Shown here: piece after piece, positions 404 to 58,509 of the stretch
How the letters are laid out: each line of letters opens with the position of its first letter
Position numbering within the stretch: position 1 is the first letter of the stretch
Assembly (NCBI RefSeq): GCF_040024445.1
Contig: NZ_CP157276.1
Span: 4,712,001 to 4,776,000 of the forward strand
Length of the DNA stretch: 64,000 nt
Reading direction: 5' to 3'
Source of the DNA: Prescottella soli
GTDB taxonomy: Bacteria; Actinomycetota; Actinomycetes; Mycobacteriales; Mycobacteriaceae
Notes under the pieces: model-generated
Databases searched by the model: none
Seen by the model: the letters and a program-made list of their open reading frames with translations, nothing else
What the model was told of the DNA's origin: nothing
Program-made: the position numbers and the translations under genes

Positions 404-3400
404 ATGACCGATTCGGGCGCACGCACCAGGCCGTCGGCGCCGGCCGCGCGGCTCGTCGGCCGCACCGTCGCGGCGCCGGCCGCGCGGACGTGGGCGCCCG
501 GTCCGGCACGCGTGCTGACCGGTGCGCCCCCCGGGCGCGGCTGGCACCCGTGGCAGATCCTCGGCGGGCCCGGCACGGGCAAGACGTCGCTGATCGTGGA
601 TGCCGCAGTGGCTCGGATCACGGCCGGTGCGGACCCGGAATCGGTGCTGGTGCTGACGCAGTCGCGGCGCGCGGCCAACGCCGTGCGCGAGCAGATCACG
701 GCGAGCCTGCTCGCGGCGGAGGCCGTCTCGGGCCCCGACGCGCGCCCGCGGGCGACCCGGGAGCCGCTCGTGCGCACGGTGCACTCGTACGCGTTCGCGG
801 TGCTGCGGCTGCAGGCCGCCGCGCACGGCAACCCGCCGCCGCGCTTGATCACCGGTTCCGAGCAGGACTCGGTGCTGCGCGAGCTGCTGCGCGGTGACAT
901 CGCCGACGGCGCCGAGGCGTGGCCCGAACGGCTGCGGCCCGCCCTCGGCATGACGGGGTTCGCGGTGGAACTGCGCAACCTCATGCTGCGGGCCAACGAG
1001 CGCGGGCTCGGACCCGAGGACCTGATCGAGCTGGGGCACGCGCACGACAAGCCGGAGTGGGTCGCGGCGGGCCGCTTCGCGATGCACTACGAGCAGGGCA
1101 TGCTGTTGCGCGGATCGGTCGGCATGGAGGCGCCCGAGGCCACCGCGCCCGCGCTCGATGCCGCCGAACTCATCAGTGCCGCACTCACCGCGTTCGCGAC
1201 CGACCCGGACCTGTTGCGGCGGGAGCGGGTCCGCGTGCGGCACCTTATGGTCGACGATGCGCAACACCTCGATCCGCAGGCCGCGCAGCTGGTCCGCCTG
1301 ATCGGGACGGGCACTGCGATGACCGCGATCGCCGGCGACCCCGACCAGTCGATCTTCGCGTTCCGCGGCGCCGACGCGCACTTCCTCGCCGAACTGGGCG
1401 ACCGCGACGACCCGGCGCAGGTGATCCTCGACACCAACTTCCGGTCGGCCCCCGAGGTCGCGGCCACCGCGGCGCGGGTCGCGGCGCGGCTGCCCGGCAA
1501 TCCGCCGCATCGCGGCGCGGGCGTGCACGCGTCGGACGACGACTCGCCCGGCCGGGCCGTGGTGCGGGTGCTCACCACGCCGGCCAAGGAGGCGGCGCTG
1601 ATCGCGGACACGTTGCGGCGCGCACACCTGATCGACGGCGTGCCGTGGTCCGAGATGGCGATCGTCGCGCGGTCGGTGCCGCGAGTGCTGCCGCCGCTGC
1701 GACGGGCCCTGCTCGCCGCCGGTGTGCCCGTCACGACCGCGGCCAGTGAGCTGCCGCTCGCGAAGCAGCACGGCGTCGCGGGCCTGCTCGCGGTGCTGCG
1801 GGCGCTCTCGGGTGGCGACTTCACCGGCGAGGACGCGCTGGCGCTGCTGTCGGGGCCGATCGGCGGGGCAGAACCGGTGAGCTTGCGGCGACTGCGCCGC
1901 GGTCTGCGCCGCGTCGAACTCGCGTCGGGCGGCGACCGGGACTCGGCGGAGCTGCTGCGGGCCGTCATCGTCGACGGACCGAAGTCCGAGCATGTCGCGC
2001 ACCTGCTGCCCGGCCTCACCGACGTCGAATCCCTCTCCCTGCGACGGGTGCTCAAGGTGCTACGCCGTGCGCGCGTGCCGCTGGACCGGGGGCGCGGCAT
2101 CGAGGAGGTGCTGTGGGCGGCGTGGCAGGCGACCGGACTCGAACGCCGCTGGGCGGCGGCGTCGGCGTTCGGCGGGCCGATCGGTGCGCAGGCCGATCGT
2201 GACCTCGACGCCGTCGTCGCGCTGTTCGACGCTGCCGCCGACTACGTGGACCGCCTGCCCCGGGCCCAGCTCTCCGGATTCGTGGACTACCTGGTGGAGC
2301 AGGAGATCCCGGGTACCGCGCGCGCCCGCGCCGTGGCGGCGCAGGAGACCGTGACGATCCTGAGTGCGCACTCCGCCGCGGGCCGGCAGTGGCAGGTGGT
2401 CGCGGTGGTCGGCGTGCAGGAGGGCCTGTGGCCGAGCCTCGGCGCCCGCGGCACCCTGCTCGGCACCGAGGAACTCATCGACCTCACCGGCGGTGTGGGG
2501 CAGGTCGACACGACGCTGTCGAGGACGGCACCGCTGCTCGCCGAGGAGCGCCGCCTGTTCCTGGTCGCGTGCAGCCGTGCCCGGTCGTCGCTGCTCGTGA
2601 CGGCCGTGGATTCGTCGAGCGGGGACACCGACCTGGTCCGATCACGGTTCGTCGACGACCTCCTCGGTGCCGGCGAGACCGACAGCGACGACTCCGACGT
2701 CGCGCCGGTGCAGAGCGAAACCCCCCGCGTGCTGGCGCTGCCCGCGCTGGTCGCGGAACTGCGCAGCGTCGTGTGCGACCCGGACATCGCCGCGTCCGAT
2801 CCGGAGCGGCAGCGTCGTGCCGCGCACCAGCTGGCGCGGCTGGCGGACGCCGGCGTCCGCGGCGCGCACCCCGACCAGTGGTACGGCACCGCCGAGCCGA
2901 GTTCGGATGCGGCGCTGTGGGATCCGGACGACGGACCGGTGCCGCTGTCGCCGTCGACCATCGAGCTCATCGCCAACTGTCCGCTGCGTTGGATGCTCGA
3001 ACGGCACGGCGGCAGTGACGGCGACAACACACACGCGATCGCCGGCACACTTGTGCACACTCTCGTGCAGGCACTGGCCGGCCACATCCCGCCGGACCAG
3101 GTGGACCACGCGCTGGAGACGGCCTGGGACTCGGTGGACCTGGGGTCCGAGTGGTACTCGCGGCGCGAACTGGAACGCACCCGCGGCATGCTCGACACCT
3201 TCGCGAACTGGCTGCGCGGCACGCGGTCCGAGCTCACCGAGATCGGCGTCGAGGTCTCGGTGGACGGCGTGCTCGAGCCGCGGGTCGAGGGCGACCCGAC
3301 GGTGCGCATCCGCGGCCGTATCGACCGGCTCGAGCGCGACGCCGAGGGCCGCCCGGTGATCATCGACGTCAAGACCGCGAAGAACGCGGTGACGAAGGAA

Positions 3401-8332: not shown

Positions 8333-9250
8333 GTGCCCGACTTCACAGCGCCCGATTTCACGCTGACCGAAACACCACTGCTGTCGCGTGCGGTCGTCGA
8401 CCGTGCCGAGCAATTGCGTTCGGACACGGATGCATTGCGAGCCGGCTGGGCGGACGCGCTGCTGTTGCGGGTCAACCCCCGCGGGCAGTTCCGCGTCGCC
8501 GACCGCGAACTGGTTCTCGAACCGGCGACATCGCTCGGCGGGGAACCCGCGTCCGGGACGGTGTTCCTGGGGTTGCGCGGCGAGCGTCACGTCTGGGCGG
8601 TGCGGGTGCCGGCGATGACCGGCGAGTTGGGCGATCTGCGGATGCTCGGTCACCAGCTCGACGAGGCGAGCGCCGGCCTGGTGACGACAGCGGTGGCGCT
8701 GCTGAACTGGCACGACCACGCCGGGTTCAGCGCCATCGACGGCGCCCCGACCGAGCCGACCATGTCGGGGTGGTCGCGGATCAGCACGACCACCGGGCAC
8801 GAGGAGTTTCCGCGCACCGACCCGGCCGTGATCTGTCTCGTGCACGACGGCGGCGACCGGGTGCTGCTGGCGCGTCAGCCGTCGTGGCCGCCCCGGATGT
8901 TCTCGGTGCTGGCCGGTTTCGTGGAGGCGGGGGAGTCGCTCGAGACGTGCGTCGCGCGGGAGATCCGCGAAGAGGTGGGAGTGGACGTCTCCGACATCCG
9001 GTACCTGGGCAGCCAGCCGTGGCCGTTCCCGCGGTCGATCATGCTCGGGTTCGCGGCCGTCGGCGACCCCGCCGCCGCTTTCGAGTTCGCGGACGGCGAG
9101 ATCGCCGAGGCCCACTGGTTCACCCGCGATCAGGTGCGTGCCGCGCTCGGCGCGGGCGACTGGAGCACGTCGTCGGATGCCGAACTGCTGCTGCCCGGCT
9201 CGATCTCGATCGCGCGGGTGATGGTCGAGTCCTGGGCGAAGGCCGACTGA
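8333..9250 (+). CDS. nudC: NADH pyrophosphatase / NAD-decapping Nudix hydrolase
   Basis: 305-residue NudC-family Nudix enzyme, hydrolysing NAD(H) to NMN(H) and AMP and, in characterised members, removing NAD caps from RNA. The Nudix box GFVEAGE-5x-REIREEVGV is at 195-217 and the diagnostic SQPWPFP follows at 227-233. Between the N-terminal domain and the Nudix fold, the place of the usual four-Cys zinc ribbon reads HAGFSAIDGAPT and GWSRISTTTG, so all four Cys are absent. GTG 8333 lies 7 nt after a -10 box TAGGGT, suggesting a leaderless start; GTG 8303 is an alternative. Stop abuts the convergent mycoredoxin gene. Confidence 0.88.
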   Translation: MPDFTAPDFTLTETPLLSRAVVDRAEQLRSDTDALRAGWADALLLRVNPRGQFRVADRELVLEPATSLGGEPASGTVFLGLRGERHVWAVRVPAMTGELGDLRMLGHQLDEASAGLVTTAVALLNWHDHAGFSAIDGAPTEPTMSGWSRISTTTGHEEFPRTDPAVICLVHDGGDRVLLARQPSWPPRMFSVLAGFVEAGESLETCVAREIREEVGVDVSDIRYLGSQPWPFPRSIMLGFAAVGDPAAAFEFADGEIAEAHWFTRDQVRAALGAGDWSTSSDAELLLPGSISIARVMVESWAKAD

Positions 9251-15754: not shown

Positions 15755-16384
15755 GTGACTGGCACCGGAATCTCCGACAGCGGACGCCCCGAGGTGGAGA
15801 TCCGACGCAGCGCGCGGCGGCGGCGCACCGTCAGCGCACGCCGCGAGGGCGACAAGGTGGTCGTGCTGATGCCGGCCGGTCTCTCGAAGTCGGCGGAGGC
15901 GGACCTGGTCGCCGAGATGATCGGGAAGCTCGAACGGTCGGACCGCCGCGCCGCGGCCCGCGCCGAACGCAGCGACGTCGAACTGGCCGAGCGCACCGCC
16001 CGGCTGTCGGCGCGGTGGCTCGGTGGCGCGGCGGCACCCGTGTCGGTGCGCTGGGTGCCGTCGATGCGGACCCGCTGGGCGTCGTGCACGCCGAACGACG
16101 GCACCATCCGGGTCAGCGAGCTGCTGCAGACGGTGCCGTCGTACGTGTTGGACTACGTGCTGGTGCACGAATTGGTGCACCTGTATGTCGCCGGCGGACA
16201 CAACGACCGCTTCTGGCGGGAGGTGCGCCGCTATCCGAAGACCGAGCGGGCAATGGGCTACCTGGAGGCGTACTCCGTGGTGACGCGGCAGCCCGGCCTG
16301 CTGGACGGGATCGACCTCACCGATCCCATGGTCGACGCCGTCGGCTGCGGGGCAGCCGACGACGTTGGTGTTCCTACCGCTTAG
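15755..16384 (+). CDS. YgjP-like zinc metallopeptidase domain protein
   Basis: 209-residue protein with the zincin signature VHELVHLYVAGGHNDRFW: HExxH plus a distal GHNxxFW, typical of the YgjP/SprT-like metallopeptidase fold (PF01863). The basic N-terminus (RRSARRRRTVSARR) and MRTRWASCTPNDGTI before the active site are also family features. Substrate unknown. GTG 15755 sits 8 nt after a -10 box TAGCGT, suggesting a leaderless start; GTG 15749 would be too close to that box. Its 3' end overlaps the convergent DUF2342 gene by 4 nt. Confidence 0.75.
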   Translation: MTGTGISDSGRPEVEIRRSARRRRTVSARREGDKVVVLMPAGLSKSAEADLVAEMIGKLERSDRRAAARAERSDVELAERTARLSARWLGGAAAPVSVRWVPSMRTRWASCTPNDGTIRVSELLQTVPSYVLDYVLVHELVHLYVAGGHNDRFWREVRRYPKTERAMGYLEAYSVVTRQPGLLDGIDLTDPMVDAVGCGAADDVGVPTA

Positions 16385-47404: not shown

Positions 47405-48250
47405 GTGGCCGCAGTCGGCTACGGCGTCAGCGACTTCGTCGGTGGGGTGGCCTCCCGGCGCGTCGCTGCCCTGCGGGTGGTGATCGTCTCCTACCCGCTG
47501 TCGCTGCTGTTGGTCCTCGCGCTCGCCCCGTTCGTCGGCGGCGAGGTCACCACCGAGGCACTGCTGTGGGGCGCCGCGTCCGGCATCGGGTCGGGCCTCG
47601 CCGTGTGGTGGTTCTACCTGGCGCTCGCGTCCGGCCCGATGGCGGTCGTCTCGCCGCTGACGGCGGTACTGGTCGCGGGTCTGCCGGCGATAGTCGGCAT
47701 CCTCCTCGGGGAGCGGCCCGGGGCCGTCGCGTATCTCGGGATCGTCGTCGCGCTCGTCGCGGTCGTACTGGTATCCCGGGAGTCGCCGGACGAGGTGGCC
47801 GGGGAGGTGGCCGGGGGCCGAGAGTTGCGGTTCACCCGCACGGTCGCGTGGCTCACCGTCGGGTCCGGCGTGGCATTCGCGTTCGCGTTCGTCGGGCTGC
47901 ACGAAATTCCCGACGGCACCGGGCTGTGGCCGCTCGCCGCCGCCCGCGCCACGGCGACCGTCGTCGTGTGGGCGGTCGCGCTGACGTCGCGGCAGTTCCG
48001 CCCGCCGCACGGCGAGGTGCTGCGCCTGACTGCCTACATCGCGGTGCTCGACGTGGTCGCGAACGCCGCGATGATGTACGCGTTCCAGGGCGGTCTGCTG
48101 TCGCTGGTGAGCGTCATCGGCTCGCTGTATCCGGCCGCGACGGTGCTGCTGGCGATGGTGATGCTCGGCGAACGCGTCAGCCGGATCCAGCAGGCCGGAA
48201 TGCTGTTGGCGCTCGCGTCGGTTGCGATGATCGCGGTGGCCGCCACGTGA
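47405..48250 (+). CDS. EamA/DMT-family transporter
   Basis: 281-residue membrane protein with ten hydrophobic helices in two EamA repeats (VSPLTAVLVAGLPAIVGILLGERP-like and SLYPAATVLLAMVMLGERVSR). It exports or imports an unknown metabolite. The GTG at 47405 is used. The frame is open back to CTG 47381, which would add LTPVLLAL and complete the first helix, so the true start may be upstream or non-canonical. The last 22 codons are repeated almost exactly 8100 bp to the right, beyond the catabolic island. Confidence 0.85.
   Translation: MAAVGYGVSDFVGGVASRRVAALRVVIVSYPLSLLLVLALAPFVGGEVTTEALLWGAASGIGSGLAVWWFYLALASGPMAVVSPLTAVLVAGLPAIVGILLGERPGAVAYLGIVVALVAVVLVSRESPDEVAGEVAGGRELRFTRTVAWLTVGSGVAFAFAFVGLHEIPDGTGLWPLAAARATATVVVWAVALTSRQFRPPHGEVLRLTAYIAVLDVVANAAMMYAFQGGLLSLVSVIGSLYPAATVLLAMVMLGERVSRIQQAGMLLALASVAMIAVAAT
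48182..48248 (+). repeat. left direct repeat (intact EamA 3' end)
   Basis: These 67 bp match 56282-56348 at 64 positions. The mismatches are at 48189, 48193 and 48218. Just beyond, the stops differ (TGA here, TAA in the right copy). It forms the left boundary of the lower-GC catabolic cluster. Confidence 0.9.
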
Positions 48251-48309
48251 CGGGAGCGGGGCGGGCGCCGTAGCTCCAGGTGACCGGGTACGGCTGCCTG
48301 CCCTGCGTC

Positions 48310-50115
48310 TCAACCTTGACGCGTGTCGGCGTCACTGCGAATCCGGCAGAGCACGTCGCCGCCGGCTCGGGTGTCGCCGACTGTCACGTCGACGCTCTCG
48401 ATACGACCGGATTTGTGAGCACGGACCGGGTTCTCCATCTTCATTGCTTCGACCACCGCGATCAGTTCACCGGCCTGCACCTGCTGACCTTCTGTGACCG
48501 TCAGCTTCGTGATGGTGCCTTGCATCGGTGCCGACACGTCGTCACCGTTGTGATTCGGCGTCTGAAGTGCGGAGGTCGTTTGTTTCGACTGGGCGCGAAT
48601 GCCCTCTGCATCGGGTCCCAGAATGCCGAGGCCCGGCAGATTCACCCGGTGTGCGCGGCCACCGATCAGAACCGTGACCGAATTGGGGTCGGTGGCCGTG
48701 GAGCCGGATGGATGACCTGCGATCTCCTCGGCGGACCCTTCCTCCAGGCCGAGGAATGCGGCGGCTTCGGCCTCGATCCAGGTCGTGTGTACGGCGAACG
48801 CCACGCTGTCGGTAGTGAATTCGGGCGCTCGAGTAACGGTGCGGTGGAAGGGTAGTACCGTGGGCAAGCCTTCGACCCGCATCTCGGCGAGGGCGCGGCG
48901 ACTGCGGGCCAGCGCTGTGGCGCGGTCAGGACCCGAGACGATCAGCTTGGCCAGCATGGAATCGAACTGGCCACCGACAACGGTGCCCGCCTCCACGCCC
49001 GCGTCGATCCGGATTCCAGGGCCTTCGGGTACTTCCCACTTGGTGATCGTTCCCGGCGTGGGGATGAACCCACCGAATGGGTCCTCACAGTTGATCCGGA
49101 ACTCGAACGCGTGGCCGATGGGCTCGGGATCCTCTGTCAGGCTGAGTGATTCACCGCGTGCGATTCGGAATTGCTCGAGGACGAGGTCGAGTCCCGTTGT
49201 CTGCTCGGTGACGGGATGTTCCACCTGCAATCGAGTGTTGACTTCGAGGAAGGACACGGTGCCGTCGCAGCCGACCAGGAACTCCACCGTCCCGGCACCG
49301 ATGTAGCCGCTCTTGAAACAGATTGCGCGTGCACCCTCCCGGATCGCGGCTTCCTGCTCGGACGTGAGGAAGGGGGCGGGCGCTTCCTCCACCAGCTTTT
49401 GGTGGCGCCGTTGCAGGGTGCAGTCGCGAGTACCGACGACGACCACGTTCCCATGTGTGTCGGCGAGCACCTGGGCCTCGACATGGCGCGGTTTGTCGAG
49501 GTAGCTCTCGACAAAGCACTCTCCGCGCCCGAACGCCACGACAGCCTCTCGTGTTGCTGCTTCGAATTCGTCGGCGATATAGCGGGATTCGCGCACCACG
49601 CGTAACCCGCGGCCGCCACCTCCGAATGCCGCCTTGATTGCGATGGGAAGTCCATGTTCGGTTGCGAACGACTGGATCTCGGCGACACTCTGCACCGGAT
49701 CTCGAGTACCTGGCACCAAGGGAGCGCCGACGGTTTCCGCGATCGCTCGGGCGGTGACTTTGTCCCCGAGAGCGCGGATGGTTTCGGGTCGAGGTCCGAT
49801 CCACACCAGCCCTGCGGCGATCACAGCTTCGGCGAAATCTGCGTTCTCGGACAGGAAGCCGTAGCCGGGGTGGACGGCCTGCGCGCCGGCCGCGAGCGCG
49901 ACGTCCAGGATTTTCCGGGCGTCCAGGTAGGTATCTGCCGCGGTCACGCCGTGCAGCGCGTGCGACTCGTCAGCGAGTCTCACATGGGGTAGGTCTCTGT
50001 CGGTGTCGGAGTACACGGCGACGGCTCGTAGACCGGCGTCGTGGGCGGCGCGGATGATGCGGACCGCGATCTCACCGCGGTTGGCGATGAGCACACTGTC
50101 GAACGGCTTGTACAC
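48310..50115 (-). CDS. acyl-CoA carboxylase alpha subunit (biotin carboxylase + BCCP)
   Basis: 601-residue biotin-dependent carboxylase alpha chain. An N-terminal biotin carboxylase ([11 protein letters not shown], the ATP loop [29 protein letters not shown]) is followed by a linker and a biotinyl domain with EAMKMEN, biotin Lys559. With the beta subunit 88 bp upstream it would carboxylate an acyl- or 3-methyl-enoyl-CoA. Length fits AccA-type chains; acetyl/propionyl, 3-methylcrotonyl or a longer substrate are all possible. GTG 50115 follows AAAGGG by 5 nt. Last gene of the island operon. Confidence 0.9.
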
Positions 50116-50203
50116 GATTACCCTTTCGGTTTCGGGTGTGCCCAGTACAAATCGGGTTGTACGCAGGAATGCTCAGCTTCGAGCAGCAGGATTGTCTGGG
50201 GCC

Positions 50204-51733
50204 TCAGACGGGGCTGATCGCATGGTGGCGCGAACGGGGGCGTCGCTCCCATCCGTCTGCGTGCGCGAGACGATTCACCAGTTCGGTGCGCAGCTGATCC
50301 GGCTCGACGACCGAGTCGACCACGAGGTGGCTACCCATCCGGACGAGGCTCAGGTCAGCGGCCTGCTCGGCAATGCGAGCCTCGATGAAAGCCTCGCGCT
50401 CGAGGGGATCCGCGATCTCGGCGATCTTGTTCGCGTACACAGCGTTGACCGACGCTTCCGGTGCCATTGGGCCGATGGTCGCTGTGGGCAGCGCGATCGT
50501 GGCTCGTGGCTCGAAGCCCGGTGCGCACATCGCGTAGAAGCCCGCGGCGTAGGCCTTGCGGAGGATGACGCTGAACTTGGGAACCTCGGCGCTGGCCATT
50601 GCGGTGACCATCTTGGCTCCATGTCGGATGATTCCTTGGCGCTCGATAGCAGCGCCGACCATGAATCCGGGTACGTCGTGCAGGAAGATCAGCGGAATGT
50701 TGTAGGCATCGCACATCGAAATGAAGCGTGCAGCTTTGTCCGCGGAGTCGACGAAGATTGCGCCGCTGCGCACCAACGGTTGGTTGGCGATCAGTCCGAC
50801 GGTTCGGCCTTCCAGTCGGGCGAGACCGGTTACCAACTCGGTTGCCCAGGCCGACTTGATCTCGAAGAAGCTTCCGGAATCGACGAGACGTGAGATCACG
50901 TCGCGCACGTCGTATGCCTGGTTGGGATCGAGCGGAATCAGATCGGGTTCCCAACAGGTGACCTCGGGGTCGGCGCACGGCTTCCGTGCGGGCTCCGAAC
51001 GCCAATCGTCCGGAAGGTAGGACAACAACAGCCGTGCGGCTGCGATTACCTGCCAGTCATGGTCGAACACTTCATCGCAGCATCCGGACACCGTCGCGTG
51101 CATCCGGGCGCCGCCCATCTCCTCCAACGTGGTGTGCTCGCCGGTGACCTTCTCTGCCACACGCGGAGAGGCAAGGTACATGGACGCATTGCCGTTCACC
51201 ATGCCGACCCAGTCGGTGAACGCGGGCATGTATGCGCCGCCGGCAGCGGAAGGACCGTGCAGACAGCAGATCTGGGGGACACGACCGGAGAGCTGAACCT
51301 GGAGTTGGAAGATCCGTGATGCCCCCCTTCGTCCCGAGTAGAACCCGATCTGGTCTGTGAGTCGTCCTCCAGCGGAATCAACCAGGTAGATCACCGGCAG
51401 CAGGTCCCGGTCGGCGCGCTCGAGGATCCTGATCTGCTTCTCGCATGTCAGCTCCCCCCACGACCCCGCCTTGACGCCGAAGTCGTGTGCGATCACGGCC
51501 ACTGGGCGGCCCTCGATGCGCCCGACACCTGTCAGTACGCCATCGGCGGGCAATCCATCCTCGGCGGCGGCGAGGAGGCCGTCCTCGACCCAGCTTCCCG
51601 GATCGAGGAGCAGCGTGATTCTGTCGCGCACGGGGATTTTGGACGGCCAGCGTGAGGTGTCACCGCCGTCGAGTGCAGCAGCAATCGCCGTTCCGAGGTC
51701 TGATTTCGTCGACAGTTCGGTAGTGGTGCTCAT
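50204..51733 (-). CDS. acyl-CoA carboxylase beta (carboxyltransferase) subunit
   Basis: 509-residue carboxyltransferase with two crotonase-like halves. Oxyanion elements are [12 protein letters not shown] and [14 protein letters not shown] in the first half and [17 protein letters not shown] and [15 protein letters not shown] in the second. It transfers CO2 from carboxybiotin to the acyl-CoA. The start ATG overlaps the MaoC stop (ATGA). Similar in layout to methylcrotonyl-CoA and AccD1/D2-type subunits; I cannot fix the acyl group. Confidence 0.9.
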
Positions 51734-52230
51734 GGTTCGATGCCCTTCTCGGACCGGACGTCCGGCGCCCGATGCATCAGTCCTGTCCTCCGGACCCGGC
51801 ACACCAGGGCGTCCTTTTGGTTGAATGCGCGGTGCTCGAACACCACGAGTCCTGCGTCCGGCCGCGAGCGGGACGGACGTGAACTCACGATTTCGGTCTC
51901 CACGCGGATCGTGTCACCGGCGAAGACCGGGGCAGGGAACTCGACGTCGGACAGCGCGAGCTGGGCCACGATGGTGCCCAGCGTCAGCTCGGGAACCGAC
52001 AGTCCGACCACCAGGGCCGAGGTGAACATGCTGTTCATAAGCGGGCGGCCGAACTCGGTGCCGGCGGCGTAGTCGGCGTCCAAGTGGAGGGGAGCCGGAT
52101 TCATGGTCATCGTGGTGAACAACACGTTGTCCGTTTCGGTGACGGTTCGCCGTGTCACGTGGTCGACAACAGTGCCGGGGGTGAGATCTTCGAACCACCG
52201 GCCGGACACGGGCCGTGTCGGGGATGTCAT
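51730..52230 (-). CDS. MaoC-like (hot-dog) enoyl-CoA hydratase
   Basis: 166-residue single hot-dog domain. [13 protein letters not shown] at the N-terminus, then [25 protein letters not shown] holds the hydratase-2 motif (D...H; shown in part), followed by [19 protein letters not shown]. It would hydrate an enoyl-CoA or a mesaconyl/methylglutaconyl-like product. AGGAG precedes ATG 52230. Coupled to the beta subunit; 36 nt after the synthetase gene. Confidence 0.85.
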
Positions 52231-52266
52231 GTCTGCTCCTGAGAAGTGATCTGTTCGATTGGGCCG

Positions 52267-54204
52267 TCAGTTGGAGCCTGCGCGCACGGCGCGAGCTACG
52301 ACGTCGATGGCCGCAGAATCCTCGACCGCCGACGTATCTCCCTGCGGCTCACCATAAGTGGCGATATCGCGTAGGAGCCTGCGCATCAACTTGCCGGTGC
52401 GTGTCTTGGGCATGGCAGCGATCAGATAGACATGCCCCAGTGCGGCGTACTTTCCGAGCCGCTCGGAAACGGCGTTACGAATCTCTTGCACCGCCGCTTC
52501 CGGGTCTTCGTCGTGCAAGATCACGAATGCTGCAGGGACCGTGCCCTTCGTGTCGTCGGGGACACCGACGACGGCGGCCTCCATGACACGTGGGTGGGAA
52601 CTGACGATTGCCTCGATCTCCGCGGTGGAAATACGGTGAGCGGCAATGTTGATCACGTCGTCTGCTCGCCCGAGCACCCACACGTGTCCGTCGTCGTCGA
52701 CAACCGCCTCGTCGCTCGTGGCGTAGTAGCCCGGGAACTGGGTGAAATACGTCTCGAGGTATCGGTCGTGTTCGTTCCAGACTGTGCGTGCAAGCGTGGG
52801 AAACGGATGGGCGAGTACGAGGTTGCCTTTGACTCCTGCCTCGACGGGTACGCCGTTGTCGTCGACGACTCGACAGTGGTGACCTGGAACGGGTCTTCCT
52901 GCAGAGCCGGGCTTGAGGTCGTCGACGCCGTAGATCGGATAGCTCCATGTTGATCCGGTCTCGGTCTGGCCGTAGGCGTTGATCACCGGAACCCCACCTG
53001 CGAGGTTCTCGGTGGCCCAGTTGAAGGTTTCGCTGTCGAGGAGCTCGCCCTGCGCGGTCACCAGCTTCAGCTTCGGCAATGGATGGCACACGGTGAGTTC
53101 GTCGCCGAAGCCGCGCAGCATGCGGAGCACGGTCGGTGCTGCGAGGACCTTCGTGACGTTGTGCGATTCGCAGAACTCATAGAACCGTTCCGGTGTAGGG
53201 GAGTCCAGCGCGCCTTCGTAGCAGGCGATCGTCATTCCGTTGGCGAGTCCACCGACAACGGCCTGAATGGGGAATGTCAGCCAGCCCACGTCGGCCGCGA
53301 CCCAGTAGACATCTCCGTCCTCGGGCCCAGCCTGCCAGTGCGTGTTCGCCCACGTTCCCGCGAGGAATCCGCCGACACTGTGCACGAGCCCTTTCGGTCG
53401 CGACTGAGTTCCACTGGTGAAGATCAGGAAGGCCGGATCATTCGCGTCCATCGCAGCCAGCGGTGCCGGCGTGGATTGCTGATCGACGAGTTCGTGATAG
53501 TCGATCTCGTTTTCCTCGAGTGACAGTCCGGAACCGGTGCGATCGATGACGATGGTGCTGCGGATGCTGGGGACTGTGGTTCGAGCCTTGCGCAGCGTTT
53601 CCAATAGCGGCACCAGTTTGGTGCGGCGGTAGCTGGCGTCAGCCACTACCACGACCTTGGGCTTTGCCTGTTCCAGGCGCGAACGCGCAGCTTCTTCGCT
53701 GAAGCCGGCGAACAGGACTGTGTAGATGGCGCCGATCCGATTGCACGCGTGGATGGCTGCGAAGGCTTCGACCATGTTCGGCAGGTAGATGGCGACGACG
53801 TCGCCCCGTTCCACCCCGAGGTCGACGAGGCCGGCGGCGAGGCGACCGACCTCATGTGCGAGTTCGGCGTACGTGACCTTCCGTACGTCGCCCGGTTCCC
53901 CTTCCCACACCACGGCGTACTTGTCGCGGGTCACGGGGTCCTCGGCCCACCGATCGACGCAGTTGTCGGCGACATTGATCAGGCCGCCGACGTAATAACG
54001 AAAATCGCCGAGATCGCCTTCGACGACGCTCTCGTACCGCTGCAACCAGCGGAGGTGATCGCCCACCCAATCCCAGTAACGGTCGGAGCCTTCCTTGTGT
54101 AGAGCTCGGGCGTGGTCCGCCTCTGCCTCGTATTGGTCGGATCGCCACTCCGGCGCGAGTGGGATCAGAGGCGACGAAATCAGATCCTTGATGTTGTCCG
54201 ACAT
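52267..54204 (-). CDS. acyl-CoA synthetase of the AcsA/PrpE type
   Basis: 645-residue adenylate-forming ligase with the N-terminal extension (WRSDQYEAEADHARALH) and length of acetyl/propionyl-type synthetases. The adenylate loop reads FTSGTQSRPKGLVHS, where most relatives have TSGTTGxPKG. AYGQTETGSTW, YYATSDEAVVDDDGHVW and catalytic Lys in KTRTGKLMRRLL follow. It activates a short or branched acid for the pathway of this cluster. AAGGAG lies 7 nt before ATG 54204. Confidence 0.88.
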   Translation of the reverse strand: MSDNIKDLISSPLIPLAPEWRSDQYEAEADHARALHKEGSDRYWDWVGDHLRWLQRYESVVEGDLGDFRYYVGGLINVADNCVDRWAEDPVTRDKYAVVWEGEPGDVRKVTYAELAHEVGRLAAGLVDLGVERGDVVAIYLPNMVEAFAAIHACNRIGAIYTVLFAGFSEEAARSRLEQAKPKVVVVADASYRRTKLVPLLETLRKARTTVPSIRSTIVIDRTGSGLSLEENEIDYHELVDQQSTPAPLAAMDANDPAFLIFTSGTQSRPKGLVHSVGGFLAGTWANTHWQAGPEDGDVYWVAADVGWLTFPIQAVVGGLANGMTIACYEGALDSPTPERFYEFCESHNVTKVLAAPTVLRMLRGFGDELTVCHPLPKLKLVTAQGELLDSETFNWATENLAGGVPVINAYGQTETGSTWSYPIYGVDDLKPGSAGRPVPGHHCRVVDDNGVPVEAGVKGNLVLAHPFPTLARTVWNEHDRYLETYFTQFPGYYATSDEAVVDDDGHVWVLGRADDVINIAAHRISTAEIEAIVSSHPRVMEAAVVGVPDDTKGTVPAAFVILHDEDPEAAVQEIRNAVSERLGKYAALGHVYLIAAMPKTRTGKLMRRLLRDIATYGEPQGDTSAVEDSAAIDVVARAVRAGSN

Positions 54205-54259
54205 AGCTGACTCCTTGCCCTGTGGGTGCCGATTCGAGTGAGAATGATCGGGAGCGGGA

Positions 54260-55408
54260 TCAAGCGCCGGGCAGCAGCTGCTTCGCGATGATGTCGAGCT
54301 GTACCTCGTCGACACCGCCGCCAATTCGCAGAATGCGCATGTCGCGGTAGTGGCGAGCAACCCCGGACTCCTCGACGAATCCCGAACCACCATGCAGTTG
54401 GACCGCGTCGTCGACGATCTGGGACGTTGTTTCTGCGACGTAGTACTTGGCCATAGCCACGGTGTTCGCAGCCTGGGGGTCACCGTCCCTCAATTGTGCT
54501 GCCGCCTTGTATGTCAGCAGTCGAGCAGCCTCGAGCAGGGTGTGCATTCGCGCGAGGCGGTGGCGAACAGATTGACGATCTCCGAGACGCCCTCCGAATA
54601 CGCTGCGGTTCGAGACATAGTCGGTCGCACTTCGCAGACTGTCGGCCGCATGCCCCAACCCCATGGCGGCGAGACAGATTCGTTCGAGCTGAAACGCTCC
54701 CATGATCTGATAGAAGCCGCGCCCGATCTCGCCGAGTACCGCGCTGTCGGGCACTTCGACGTCGTCGAGCATTACCTCTCGCGTGTCTGATGAATGCCAG
54801 CCCATCTTGGGCAGAGGGGACCCTACCGAGAGCCCCGGCGTACCCGCGTCGACGAGGAATGTCGTGATGCCTCGGTGTCCCGCCTCGGGATCGGTTTTCG
54901 CCGCGACGATGAAAACGTCCGCGATCCCAGCGTTGGTGATGAACATCTTGCGGCCGTTGATCCGGTAGCCGTCCGCCGTGCGGACGGCACGTGTGGTGAT
55001 ACCTGCGACGTCGGACCCGGCGCCTGGTTCGGTGACCGCAATCGCGGCGATCTTTTCGCCGGCTGCAATGGCTGGACTGTAGGACGCGGCCTGGTCAGGC
55101 GTGCCGTAGTGGACGATGTGCGTGCCGGCCATATACGCGCTGACCAGTGCGCTTACAGCGATCCCGCCGCTGGCGCGACTCAGCTCCTCGGCGAGAATTG
55201 CCACGGCCAGCTCGTCCCGGCCGCTTCCACCGTGTTCTTCCGGGGTCATCAGGCCGAGCAGTCGTGCCTTTCCGAACTCGAGCCACAAGGTCTTCGGTGG
55301 ACGCCCGGCGGCTTCGGATTCCAGCACGACTGGTCGAACGTGTTTCTGTGTGAAGGCTCGGCACGTTCCCTGAAAGTCCAGGTACTCGTCTTCGAATGAA
55401 AAGTTCAT
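54260..55408 (-). CDS. acyl-CoA dehydrogenase
   Basis: 382-residue acyl-CoA dehydrogenase. AVTEPGAGSDVAGI and YRINGRKMFITNAG are the FAD/substrate motifs; VQLHGGSGFVEESGVARHYRDMRILRIGGG (in part) is the C-terminal catalytic region. First gene of the minus-strand operon, 55 nt before the synthetase. ATG 55408 (MNFSFEDEY) follows GTGGGGAAG; GTG 55417 is possible. A TetR-type palindrome lies just upstream. Confidence 0.88.
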   Translation of the reverse strand: MNFSFEDEYLDFQGTCRAFTQKHVRPVVLESEAAGRPPKTLWLEFGKARLLGLMTPEEHGGSGRDELAVAILAEELSRASGGIAVSALVSAYMAGTHIVHYGTPDQAASYSPAIAAGEKIAAIAVTEPGAGSDVAGITTRAVRTADGYRINGRKMFITNAGIADVFIVAAKTDPEAGHRGITTFLVDAGTPGLSVGSPLPKMGWHSSDTREVMLDDVEVPDSAVLGEIGRGFYQIMGAFQLERICLAAMGLGHAADSLRSATDYVSNRSVFGGRLGDRQSVRHRLARMHTLLEAARLLTYKAAAQLRDGDPQAANTVAMAKYYVAETTSQIVDDAVQLHGGSGFVEESGVARHYRDMRILRIGGGVDEVQLDIIAKQLLPGA

Positions 55409-55415
55409 CTTCCCC

Positions 55416-55439
55416 ACTTTCCCGACTGGTCGGTAAAGT
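55416..55439. promoter_or_regulatory. TetR operator between acyl-CoA dehydrogenase and tetR
   Basis: ACTTTCCCGAC-TG-GTCGGTAAAGT: 11-bp arms with a single mismatch and a 2-nt centre. It sits 7 bp upstream of the dehydrogenase start and 120 bp before tetR. Position and symmetry fit autoregulation and repression of the island operon by the adjacent TetR protein. Confidence 0.75.
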
Positions 55440-55558
55440 GAAAGTACCGGTCGAGTTGTCGAGGGTCAAGAGATGATTGGTGTTCGTCGAAATCGGCGCG
55501 CCCGATACGCTGAGTTGCGGCACCGGGACGTCGGGGGCCAGAGGAGGAGAAGCGTCGA

Positions 55559-56155
55559 ATGGCGACCCGAGGAAGGCCCAGTCATGCTGCGGCGCAACGT
55601 GAGCGAGTGCTGGCCGGGGCGGCGGATATCTTCAGTAAGCAGGGTTACCGTGCCACCAGCATGAATGAGATAGCCGCCGCCGTCGACCTGTCCAAACCGA
55701 CGCTGTACCACTACTTCCGGAACAAGGAAGAGCTCCTCATCCGTCTCTACGAGGACGTCATGAACGAGTCGCTCGCCACGGCCCGCCGCATCGTCGACAC
55801 GGTGCCGAACCCTCTCGATGCTCTACGCGATCTCATTGCGTACCGGGTGCGGTACACCTGTGAGAACCAGGCGATCCACAAGGTCTTCTTCGAGGAAGAG
55901 GAAGAACTACCCCCTGAGCTGCTCCATTCCGTAATGGAGATGCGCAAGCAGTTCGAAGACGTGATGAAGGGGTTGGTCGGCCAGCACCTCGATGGCACAG
56001 GTCGGTCCTTGATGGTGTCGGAGACGGTCTACGTCAATACCTGTCTCGGCGCAGCCAACTGGGTCTACAAATGGTACGACCCAGAGGGTCCGCTCGAACC
56101 AGAGCAGTTGGGTCAGGACGTCGCGAGCCTGCTTCTACTGCCGTTGTCGGCATGA
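55559..56155 (+). CDS. TetR-family regulator of the island operon
   Basis: 198-residue TetR protein. The helix-turn-helix is at about 33-60 (TSMNEIAAAVDLSKPTLYHYF), and a helical ligand domain follows (VFFEEEEELPPEL, then NTCLGAANWVYKWY). It resembles FadR/KstR2-like regulators that respond to acyl-CoAs. Divergent from the acyl-CoA dehydrogenase; GAGGAGGAG precedes the ATG. The likely inducer is an acyl-CoA intermediate of the pathway. Confidence 0.88.
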   Translation: MATRGRPSHAAAQRERVLAGAADIFSKQGYRATSMNEIAAAVDLSKPTLYHYFRNKEELLIRLYEDVMNESLATARRIVDTVPNPLDALRDLIAYRVRYTCENQAIHKVFFEEEEELPPELLHSVMEMRKQFEDVMKGLVGQHLDGTGRSLMVSETVYVNTCLGAANWVYKWYDPEGPLEPEQLGQDVASLLLLPLSA

Positions 56156-56281
56156 TCTTCGGTGTGGGAGGCCGCGTCGTCCGTGATCAGCATGGCTAGC
56201 TGAGTGCGCGATCGCTGTCAGTCGTACATCGCTGTCGTGCGCCGTGGACGGACCTCGGGATCGACACAGCGAGTTGGTGAT

Positions 56282-56348
56282 CGGATCCCGCAAGCCGGAA
56301 TGCTGTTGGCGCTCGCGCCGGTTGCGATGATCGCGGTGGCCGCCACGT
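56282..56348 (+). repeat. right direct repeat (EamA 3'-end remnant)
   Basis: In frame it still encodes the EamA tail with two changes (RIPQAGMLLALAPVAMIAVA, then AT and stop TAA). There is no gene upstream of it, so it is a remnant. The rest of 56156-56377 holds no recognisable gene. Confidence 0.9.
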
Positions 56349-56377
56349 AAGGGGAAGATGCGGCGGCCACCGCCGCC

Positions 56378-58450
56378 CTATTTCGCGACCCGCTCCCACA
56401 TCTGCAGGTACGCCTCCGCGCCACGGGACATGTCGTCCATGAACTGCTGCCCGTCGTCACCGGCGAACTTGCGCATGCCCTCGATCCAGTCCGGGATCAT
56501 TCCGTACTGCGCCAGGCCGTCGGTGTTGAAGTCGAACACCCGGGTGCCGGCGCGCTGCTGGTCCATCACGGTGCCGCCGTCGAACGTCGTGTACGGGTAG
56601 TCGACCAGGTGCCCGCCGTCCTTGGGCGGCGCCGGCTGGGAACCGAAGCCGTTGGTATCGGCGCCGTATCCGTAGCCGAAGTAGAACCGCCCGTCACGCT
56701 CGGCACGGGCGTCGCGCCACTCGGTGAGGAGGGTCTCCGGCGGACCGGCGTACGACGCGACGAAGCCGCCGAGCTTGTAGATGCGCGCGTAATTCGACGG
56801 GTCGGTCCAGCTGTGACTCGACACGACACCCGAGTAGTGCGCGTCCTCGAGGATCTTCAGCGCCGAGTCGGCGGTCTTGACGCCCATGTGGTCGATGTCG
56901 ATGATCATCCCGCGCTGCATCAGCCCGCGGACCGCGTGCGCACCGAGCGGGGTCAGGTCGCGGGCGTTGCACACGTCGCCCGGCGGGTAGACCGGGAGCG
57001 TGACACCCGGCGGCAGCGACTTCGTCACTTCCGCGGTCCCCTCGTCGACATTGCCGATCGGGTTGTCGGCGGCGACGCCGGTGCAGGGCTCGACCTTCCA
57101 GAACTCGCCGGTGCCCAGGAAGTTGCCGACGTTGACGGCGGTCCCGGTGAGGCCCTGGTCGAAGCGGACGCCGCCGAGGGCGTTGTCGAACTTGTGCGTC
57201 AGGATCACCTGCCGCACGCCCATCGAGTACAGCTCGTCGAGCCCGGTGTCGATGTCCTGCTCGGTGCATTGGGGCACGCCGTTCCGCACGCCGCAGCCGA
57301 ACGGCTCGGAGATCTCCACACCGAGCGTCACCGCGAGCTTGCCCGACGCCGCCACCCGCCGCGCGTCCGCGGGGGAATCGACGATCCGGAACCAGCCGCG
57401 GCCCGGTCCGCCGTACTGCGCGTCGACGTAGTCCTGGATCTCGTGCGCCTGCCGGGCCTCGATCCGGATGGTCTCGGTCTCGTCGCACGGGTTGCTGCGC
57501 AGCGGATACAGCTCGCACAGCACGCGGTTGGACACCAGCAGGTTGGTGAAGATGCGCAGCCCGCCGCGCCACGCCCGCTCGACCCAGCGGTAGTACGTCT
57601 GCTCGTGGGTCATCGAGTCGTACGCCGGCACGTCGGCGAAGCTGGGCCACATCGTCGTGTCGTGCGTCTCGAACGGGTTGCCGTGCGAGAGGACGTTTTC
57701 GAGCAGCGCGGGCATGCCGTCGGGCTTGTGGTCCGGGCAGTCCTGCAGTGCGTCGGTGACCCCGAGCGGGGAGTACGGCTTGCCGCAGCGGATCTCGCCG
57801 CCGATGAACTCGTTGGCGTTCATGTGGACGTGCGCGTCGATGAAACCCCGCACCTCGCCGGACGGCGCCGCCCCGACTGGTGTGCCGGTGGCGTTCACCT
57901 CCGCCTCCGGGAAGTCGGCGCAGCCGTCGGCGGCGGTCAGCCGGAACCGTCCGGCCTCGGGATCGGCACCCGGATCGGTGACCGTGAGACGCCCGTCGGA
58001 ACGGTTCACGCTCAACTGCTTGCCGGTCACGGTGCCGGTCGCCGTGTAGACGCCGTCGGTGAACGTCAGCATCCAGTCGGTCGCGGGTGTCGCCTGCGGT
58101 GACGCGGTCACCTTGCCCGACTCGCCGGCGATCAACGCGGAGTCGTTGCCGTACAGGAGGAATCGGCCGAGTTGTGCCGCCTGCATCCGGAACCGGGTGG
58201 CCGCCGCGGCGTCCCCTCCGGTGCGGAAGCCGTCGCCGTCACGAGTGACGGACCCCGGTGCGACGTCGGAGGTCAGCGTGTAGCAGCCGCCGGCGAGACC
58301 GTAGACGGGATCGGCGGGTGGCCCCGGATCGGTGGGGTCCGGGGAAAGGGGTGCCGACACCGCACTGGCGGTCACGGCGACGGCGAGGGTCAGTGTGGCG
58401 CCGAACAGCGCCATTGCCCGTCGTCGAACGGATCCGGATACACGGCTCAT
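56378..58450 (-). CDS. secreted M19-like (renal dipeptidase fold) hydrolase
   Basis: 690-residue exported protein. A signal peptide (MSRVSGSVRRRAMALFGATLT, shown in part) is followed by a roughly 190-residue beta-rich N-terminal domain (CYTLTSDVAPGS, QLSVNRSDGRL). An amidohydrolase barrel follows, with metal-site motifs FIDAHVHMNANEF, DIDHMG and SSHSW, and C-terminal DFNTDGLAQYGMIPDW. The HxH, DIDH and SSHS pattern suits M19 dipeptidases. ATG 58450 follows AGGAGATGG. Its 3' end lies 29 bp from the right island repeat, so this is the first core gene beyond the island. Confidence 0.75.
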   Translation of the reverse strand: MSRVSGSVRRRAMALFGATLTLAVAVTASAVSAPLSPDPTDPGPPADPVYGLAGGCYTLTSDVAPGSVTRDGDGFRTGGDAAAATRFRMQAAQLGRFLLYGNDSALIAGESGKVTASPQATPATDWMLTFTDGVYTATGTVTGKQLSVNRSDGRLTVTDPGADPEAGRFRLTAADGCADFPEAEVNATGTPVGAAPSGEVRGFIDAHVHMNANEFIGGEIRCGKPYSPLGVTDALQDCPDHKPDGMPALLENVLSHGNPFETHDTTMWPSFADVPAYDSMTHEQTYYRWVERAWRGGLRIFTNLLVSNRVLCELYPLRSNPCDETETIRIEARQAHEIQDYVDAQYGGPGRGWFRIVDSPADARRVAASGKLAVTLGVEISEPFGCGVRNGVPQCTEQDIDTGLDELYSMGVRQVILTHKFDNALGGVRFDQGLTGTAVNVGNFLGTGEFWKVEPCTGVAADNPIGNVDEGTAEVTKSLPPGVTLPVYPPGDVCNARDLTPLGAHAVRGLMQRGMIIDIDHMGVKTADSALKILEDAHYSGVVSSHSWTDPSNYARIYKLGGFVASYAGPPETLLTEWRDARAERDGRFYFGYGYGADTNGFGSQPAPPKDGGHLVDYPYTTFDGGTVMDQQRAGTRVFDFNTDGLAQYGMIPDWIEGMRKFAGDDGQQFMDDMSRGAEAYLQMWERVAK

Positions 58451-58509
58451 CGGCGACCATCTCCTGAGGGAGCCCAAACGTCATTGTCTGGCAGCAGGCT
58501 AGGACAATT

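Follow-up and report, generated by a model that had tools for sequence, protein, structure and literature searches.

The 64,000-nucleotide window analysed here (Prescottella soli, assembly GCF_040024445.1, contig NZ_CP157276.1, positions 4,712,001 to 4,776,000 of the forward strand) contains an 8.0-kb foreign catabolic operon gained in this Prescottella lineage at the 3′ end of a gene for an EamA-family transporter; insertion at the EamA end, taken on its own, is close to certain. The inserted segment, referred to here as the islet, lies between two direct copies of the end of the target gene, and the element and its immediate surroundings consist of the following features.

47405 to 48250, plus strand: gene for an EamA-family transporter, target of the insertion; intact, 281 amino acids, ending in TGA (PF00892, E 1.8e-16)
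48182 to 48255, plus strand: gene-attached repeat copy, attL-like (repeat comparison)
48256 to 56281, unstranded: islet insert of 8,026 bp, between the repeat copies
56282 to 56355, plus strand: distal repeat copy, attR-like; the displaced original EamA 3′ end, followed by host downstream DNA (repeat and empty-site comparison)
56378 to 58477, minus strand: M19-like gene flanking the islet on the right; it adjoins EamA in the empty site (PF01244, E 3.7e-8)

The two copies (48182-48255 and 56282-56355) form a direct repeat of 74 nt with 93% identity and a spacing of 8100 bp. A preliminary description of this DNA, made from the sequence alone, had reported that the last 67 bp of EamA recur 8100 bp to the right with 64 of 67 bases identical and a stop codon adjacent, and the repeat comparison confirmed this, placing the three mismatches at 48189, 48193, and 48218 and the next ones at 48249 and 48251, in and just past the stop codon. 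The left copy is made up of the final 67 nt of EamA, including the first base of the stop codon, and 7 nt more. EamA stops at TGA (48248-48250), the equivalent triplet in the right copy is TAA (56348-56350), and the right copy immediately precedes the M19-like gene, which is convergent with EamA. The EamA reading frame is complete with its stop, so the end of the target gene has been restored. In strength the pair is unique among direct pairs in the window, where the sole other listed pair of at least 45 nt is 71% identical. The preliminary description would have given up its interpretation for a common dispersed element; that idea was dropped, because the 5,475,811-bp single-contig genome holds, beyond the two copies, one weak partial match only (83% over 40 nt, E 2.7e-4). 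The marks of a transposon are likewise missing from the islet: no terminal inverted repeats of note were found at its ends (end-to-end matches of at most 7 nt on either strand), and domain annotation revealed no transposase among its genes.

The empty site is preserved in relatives. One repeat copy joining EamA directly to the M19-like gene, the arrangement that the preliminary description had predicted for strains without the island, was seen in P. agglutinans (G002) and P. defluvii (G008), the only ones among the other genus genomes with EamA beside M19. The right-flank match begins at 56282 in both, and the left-flank match stops at 48254 in P. agglutinans and at 48276 in P. defluvii. EamA is present in 5 of the 13 other genus genomes, as near-full-length matches of 80-98% identity in four and as a split match (98%, 97%) in P. 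defluvii. The other three carriers (G006, G011, and G003) have a lipase gene after EamA, one repeat copy, and no M19 match; the remaining eight genomes have no EamA match, and smpB adjoins M19. A survey of 80 EamA loci of the wider group, covering up to 10 kb on each side and less at contig ends, found no second repeat copy of comparable strength, the strongest extra matches being 27 nt at 89% (inside EamA itself) and 23 nt at 96%. The transfer-messenger RNA (tmRNA) gene starts 56-7,366 bp past the EamA match in 79 of these loci, compared with 11.8 kb in P. soli; it was not found in the eightieth, where the contig is just 5 kb. Integrase-like matches, obtained by tblastn with the recombinases of the P. 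soli genome as queries, occur at two of the 80 loci, both in Nocardia and both beyond the tmRNA gene.

The cargo of the islet is a single operon with a divergent regulator, annotated as follows (CoA, coenzyme A; ORF, open reading frame).

48310 to 50115, minus strand: biotin carboxylase / biotin carrier subunit (BC; PF02786, PF00289, PF02785, PF00364)
50204 to 51733, minus strand: acyl-CoA carboxylase carboxyltransferase subunit (CT); ORF open to 51802 (PF01039, E 9.9e-138 for the longer ORF)
51730 to 52230, minus strand: MaoC-like enoyl-CoA hydratase (PF01575)
52267 to 54210, minus strand: acyl-CoA synthetase of the acetate/propionate-CoA ligase type; ORF open to 54483 (PF00501, PF13193, and a slightly sub-cut-off PF16177, for the longer ORF)
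54260 to 55417, minus strand: acyl-CoA dehydrogenase (ACAD; PF00441, PF02770, PF02771)
55559 to 56155, plus strand: TetR-family regulator, divergent from the operon (PF00440, PF17932)

The closest solved structures are propionyl-CoA carboxylase beta (1vrg) for CT and isovaleryl-CoA dehydrogenase (4kto) for the acyl-CoA dehydrogenase; the NF001208 match of the synthetase falls below its cut-off. The operon probably acts on a short or branched acyl chain, which would be converted to its CoA ester, desaturated, carboxylated, and hydrated under TetR control. Beyond the operon and its regulator, the islet extends for 54 bp at its left end and 126 bp at its right end. As the preliminary description had stated, no integrase or recombinase is encoded in it; the gaps between the six operon genes are at most about 140 bp, too short for one. 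Its further statement that a TetR-controlled catabolic operon lies here at lower guanine-plus-cytosine (GC) content than both flanks also held, the insert having 63.2% GC against 66.5% in the left 8 kb and 68.0% in the right 7.6 kb. A wider background was provided by 2024 overlapping windows of 8026 bp from 2.056 Mb of the genome (contig positions 600001-2000000 and 4200001-4856000, about 38% of the genome), excluding windows that touch the island; these average 68.9 ± 1.65%, which gives the insert a z of -3.45, and 8 of the 2024 are as low. Across the six island genes, GC at third codon positions (GC3) ranges from 0.73 to 0.83; five flanking genes that were measured gave 0.86-0.96.

Elsewhere in the P. 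soli genome, no CT-like gene exceeds 41% identity to the islet CT. Under strict thresholds, and apart from P. soli itself, close CT relatives (73-77%) turned up in three genomes among 397 from the order and in five among 394 from the class, two overlapping samples, and every one of them belongs to another family than P. soli. At the eight loci of these relatives the accompanying genes are largely those of the islet: MaoC at 8/8, ACAD and BC at 7/8 each, and TetR and a close synthetase at 6/8 each. One locus (L162) keeps the gene order of the window, apart from an added gap of about 0.9 kb ahead of BC. The cargo is thus a known kind of operon with a scattered distribution. No EamA match lies near the operon relatives at any of the eight loci, within stretches of 18-19 kb, these relatives being distant. 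Palindromes around the related operon of one genome (G450; L172:6922-6979 and 16282-16339) were considered as a parallel and dropped, since they belong to a dispersed terminator-like family that has 80 matches in G450, another 80 in G428, and none in G482.

Among the matches listed for the 13 other genus genomes, none covers the full length of the islet; the longest listed are about 1.3 kb at 69-71% identity, to the BC gene, and short ones reach 88% over 58 nt. The empty sites, the lack of a full-length match in the genus, and the close CT relatives in other families together indicate that the islet was gained. An ancestral islet lost in the relatives by recombination between the repeats would leave empty sites of the kind seen, which look like deletion products, and direct repeats do allow such a loss. 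The lack of a full-length match in all 13 genomes, the low GC and GC3, and the position of the close CT relatives outside the family make this history very improbable.

The right copy differs from EamA by two amino-acid changes, Q to P and S to P, and the left copy keeps the EamA protein sequence. Because of these changes, and because it is joined to the downstream DNA of the empty sites, the right copy is the displaced original gene end. The preliminary description had recognised a footprint of DNA integrating into the end of a gene and bringing a replacement 3′ end; the empty sites support this, and the share of the left copy that arrived with the insert we infer. At 48189 and 48218 the left copy agrees with P. 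agglutinans and P. defluvii, and at 48249 it differs from both: its stop is TGA, against TAA in these two species (the more distant G006 also has TGA), and foreign DNA then follows. Identity of the right copy is 64/67 to the left copy, 60/67 to P. defluvii, and 59/67 to P. agglutinans, and the left copy is about equally near the right copy (64/67) and P. defluvii (63/67), with 34/37 to each alike. The changes of the distal copy (48189 and 48218) lie 5′ of those of the gene copy (48249, and 48251 against P. defluvii), an order that a crossover inside the repeat would predict; it concerns four sites and is given little weight. The pattern of the left copy is the one that a crossover inside the repeat with an incoming version of the gene end would give; it is also compatible with duplication followed by drift.

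The junctions carry two hairpins.

56333 to 56373, unstranded: hairpin resembling a terminator, between the two convergent genes; arms of 12 nt, 100% complementary
48258 to 48303, plus strand: imperfect hairpin inside the left islet end, 15-nt arms, 73% complementary

The first folds with -30.9 and -33.2 kcal/mol on the two strands (z -2.96 and -4.07). Its left arm is the EamA 3′ end, and the whole hairpin stays with the distal copy only, so that EamA after the insertion has one arm of the old hairpin and the imperfect hairpin just within the islet. The latter is a possible replacement terminator for EamA; the fold of 48225-48310 has a z of -1.70, with 15 of 200 shuffles as good. In G009, G010, and G012, which lack EamA (L043, L044, and L045), the hairpin between smpB and M19 is kept, with EamA-like tail bases.

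A second islet of similar build was found in the same genome, at a GntR/UTRA gene. A second copy of the terminal 63 nt of this gene lies 4,309 bp away (contig positions 1024317 and 1028626, the latter copy running to 1028688).

L209:4317-4379 and L209:8626-8688: the two copies of the GntR/UTRA 3′-end repeat of the second islet

By eye, both the EamA and the GntR repeats begin with GATC. The 4,246 bp of cargo encode an IclR regulator, an acyl-CoA-dehydrogenase-like protein, two SnoaL-like proteins, and a short-chain dehydrogenase; at 65.7% its GC is not extreme, 7% of 2,048 windows being as low. The GntR gene occurs in 11 relatives, the site is empty in G002, G006, and G005, and the gene-attached copy ends in TAA where all 11 relatives with the gene have TGA. 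In G012 a decayed second copy of the GntR end lies 8.7 kb away, around different genes, which are partly shared with G009, G010, and G013. In a shuffle test the second copy was matched by 0 of 300 shuffles in P. soli and in G012; it was undetectable in G010, G013, and G004, where 80, 281, and 194 of 300 shuffles were as good. The distal copies of P. soli and G012 start within one base of each other. A boundary used again in this way has the look of an attachment site, although a single old duplication whose cargo was exchanged later may also account for it. As to the order of changes between the copies, three positions of L209 on the 3′ side that changed in the gene copy (8634, 8625, and 8623) fit the same expectation as at EamA, and two that changed in the distal copy (8644 and 8657) fit it too.

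We favour site-specific integration that restored the gene end, with a recombinase that worked in trans or has disappeared since, and regard this reading as a whole, mechanism included, as evenly poised between right and wrong. Incoming DNA, probably a circle, would have borne an attP-like copy of the EamA 3′ end; strand exchange by the recombinase inside the repeat would then have given two hybrids, attL-like on the EamA side and attR-like on the M19 side, and left the gene restored. The enzyme is placed in trans, or taken as lost later, because the islet encodes none. What leads to this reading is the combination of clean empty sites, a restored gene, replacement stops at both islets, and the re-used GntR boundary.

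Several observations weigh against it. No recombinase was found in either islet, recombinase families being absent from the scanned proteins of the second one as well. The genome has eight tyrosine-recombinase matches, the nearest about 335 kb from the islet, and searching with these enzymes gave no match better than E 0.16; the genome-wide search did not extend to serine-recombinase families. Viral contigs contained no exact match to three EamA- or GntR-tail patterns, a search for the sites in phage and plasmid records yielded nothing convincing, and none of the 80 EamA loci has another repeat-bounded occupant. The EamA and GntR repeats have no motif in common (as good an alignment arose with 258 of 1000 random segments), which makes one recombinase for both sites unlikely. 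The order of changes is not clean overall at GntR: position 8673, on the 5′ side, is a change of the gene copy, both nearest relatives matching the distal copy there, and 8655 fits neither way clearly. At EamA the gene-copy changes come after the near-perfect 67 nt and may simply lie outside the repeat. Finally, the right EamA copy matches the left one (64/67) better than it matches P. defluvii (60/67) or P. agglutinans (59/67), and three bases common to both EamA copies are absent from these two species. Such shared bases are not expected of a long-foreign attP, and the two observations suggest copying within this lineage or very close to it.

These three bases, found in neither sister species, speak for the chief rival, a repair-type capture: the EamA end would have suffered a staggered break, to which the terminator hairpin may have contributed, and fill-in followed by end joining to a foreign fragment would have duplicated about 70 bp. 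The genome encodes Ku, the left edge of the insert is at the position of the hairpin loop, and the two islets use unrelated sequences, all as such a capture would have it. It would have to duplicate 63-74 nt twice at gene ends with C-terminus and stop retained, and the repeat of the GntR end in two species, around different DNA and with nearly the same boundary, points to a site and not to a random break; we consider repair capture somewhat unlikely. Campbell-type single-crossover homologous integration of a small circle that carried the EamA 3′ end by chance yields the same anatomy, and it would also account for a right copy that resembles the left one more than it does either sister species. 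About 70 bp of homology is short for RecA, the donor must have held exactly the last 67 nt of the gene, and the event must have happened twice at gene ends, so this course of events seems improbable to us.

The 2.056 Mb sampled for GC were also surveyed for direct pairs 0.5-60 kb apart, 40 nt or longer and at least 84% identical; it was this survey that brought the GntR islet to light. Fourteen such pairs were listed, with three inverted pairs besides, and by eye most are not islands: the rejected ones include motifs of ATP-binding cassette and nonribosomal peptide synthetase proteins, tandem domains, terminator-like palindromes, an intergenic family, and an htpG remnant. A 43-nt repeat of the 3′ end of a tRNA-Lys gene was recovered (contig positions 1957813-1957854 and 1960938-1960980; L303:17813-17854 and L304:938-980), and the survey is therefore able to find gene-end sites; the pair is possibly a small islet at a tRNA site. 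It resembles the EamA repeat as a direct repeat of a gene 3′ end and differs in its tRNA target, its length, and its spacing of 3.1 kb. A 220-nt direct repeat of 88% identity (contig positions 1021334 and 1023092; L209:1334-1549 and 3092-3309) includes the 3′ end of a minus-strand gene and encloses a gene that looks patatin-like by eye; the region is rearranged in relatives, and nothing is concluded from it. A degenerate, partial copy of what by eye is an htpG-like gene stands beside the full gene (L261:8056-12005), with a GSHDGS-type repeat-rich protein between them. Matching palindromes at 4242731-4242782 and 4247362-4247413 of the contig flank a putative mycofactocin gene cluster.

The remark in the preliminary description that such integration is uncommon for a protein gene was too strong: according to a 2026 study (PMC12884075), protein-coding genes harbour many of the attachment sites of islands, and in many cases the island reconstitutes the gene. 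The EamA islet resembles the TIGER/Islander-type integrase islands treated there in its precise insertion at a gene end, direct repeats, reconstituted gene, and single-copy empty site, but it encodes no integrase, no mobility or phage gene was found in it, and it holds little more than one operon. It thus behaves like a gene-restoring island yet has no integrase of its own. The microcin H47 island of Escherichia coli (PMC5426353) is integrase-less and excises independently of RecA in the laboratory; it shares with the EamA islet its small size, extensive imperfect direct repeats at the ends, and the lack of an encoded recombinase. Excision has been demonstrated for H47, whereas the EamA islet is known from sequence, and its repeat is the 3′ end of a protein gene. 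Within the same bacterial group, islands and prophages of Rhodococcus equi are flanked by direct repeats of 7, 23, and 26 bp and carry integrases, and the available part of that report (PMC6948317) mentions no EamA or GntR site. A limited literature search found no description of the EamA site or of an operon islet of such build. Attachment sites in protein genes and integrase-less islets are thus known separately; of interest here is their combination, twice in one genome, each time with about one operon.

Bacteria evidently exchange whole operons, but the event that sets an operon on its own into a chromosome can rarely be observed; in P. soli it is legible in the junctions, the empty sites, and a second example. 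By one general route, host-encoded or helper-driven, Prescottella may gain single catabolic operons as islets that lack a recombinase, sited at the 3′ ends of protein genes unrelated to one another; about 65 bp of gene end would be duplicated or brought in, and the operons would move as self-contained units with no mobility gene. We think this joint claim unlikely as it stands. Were it true and the route general, it would account for the accumulation of catabolic operons in soil actinobacteria with no mobile-element genes left behind.

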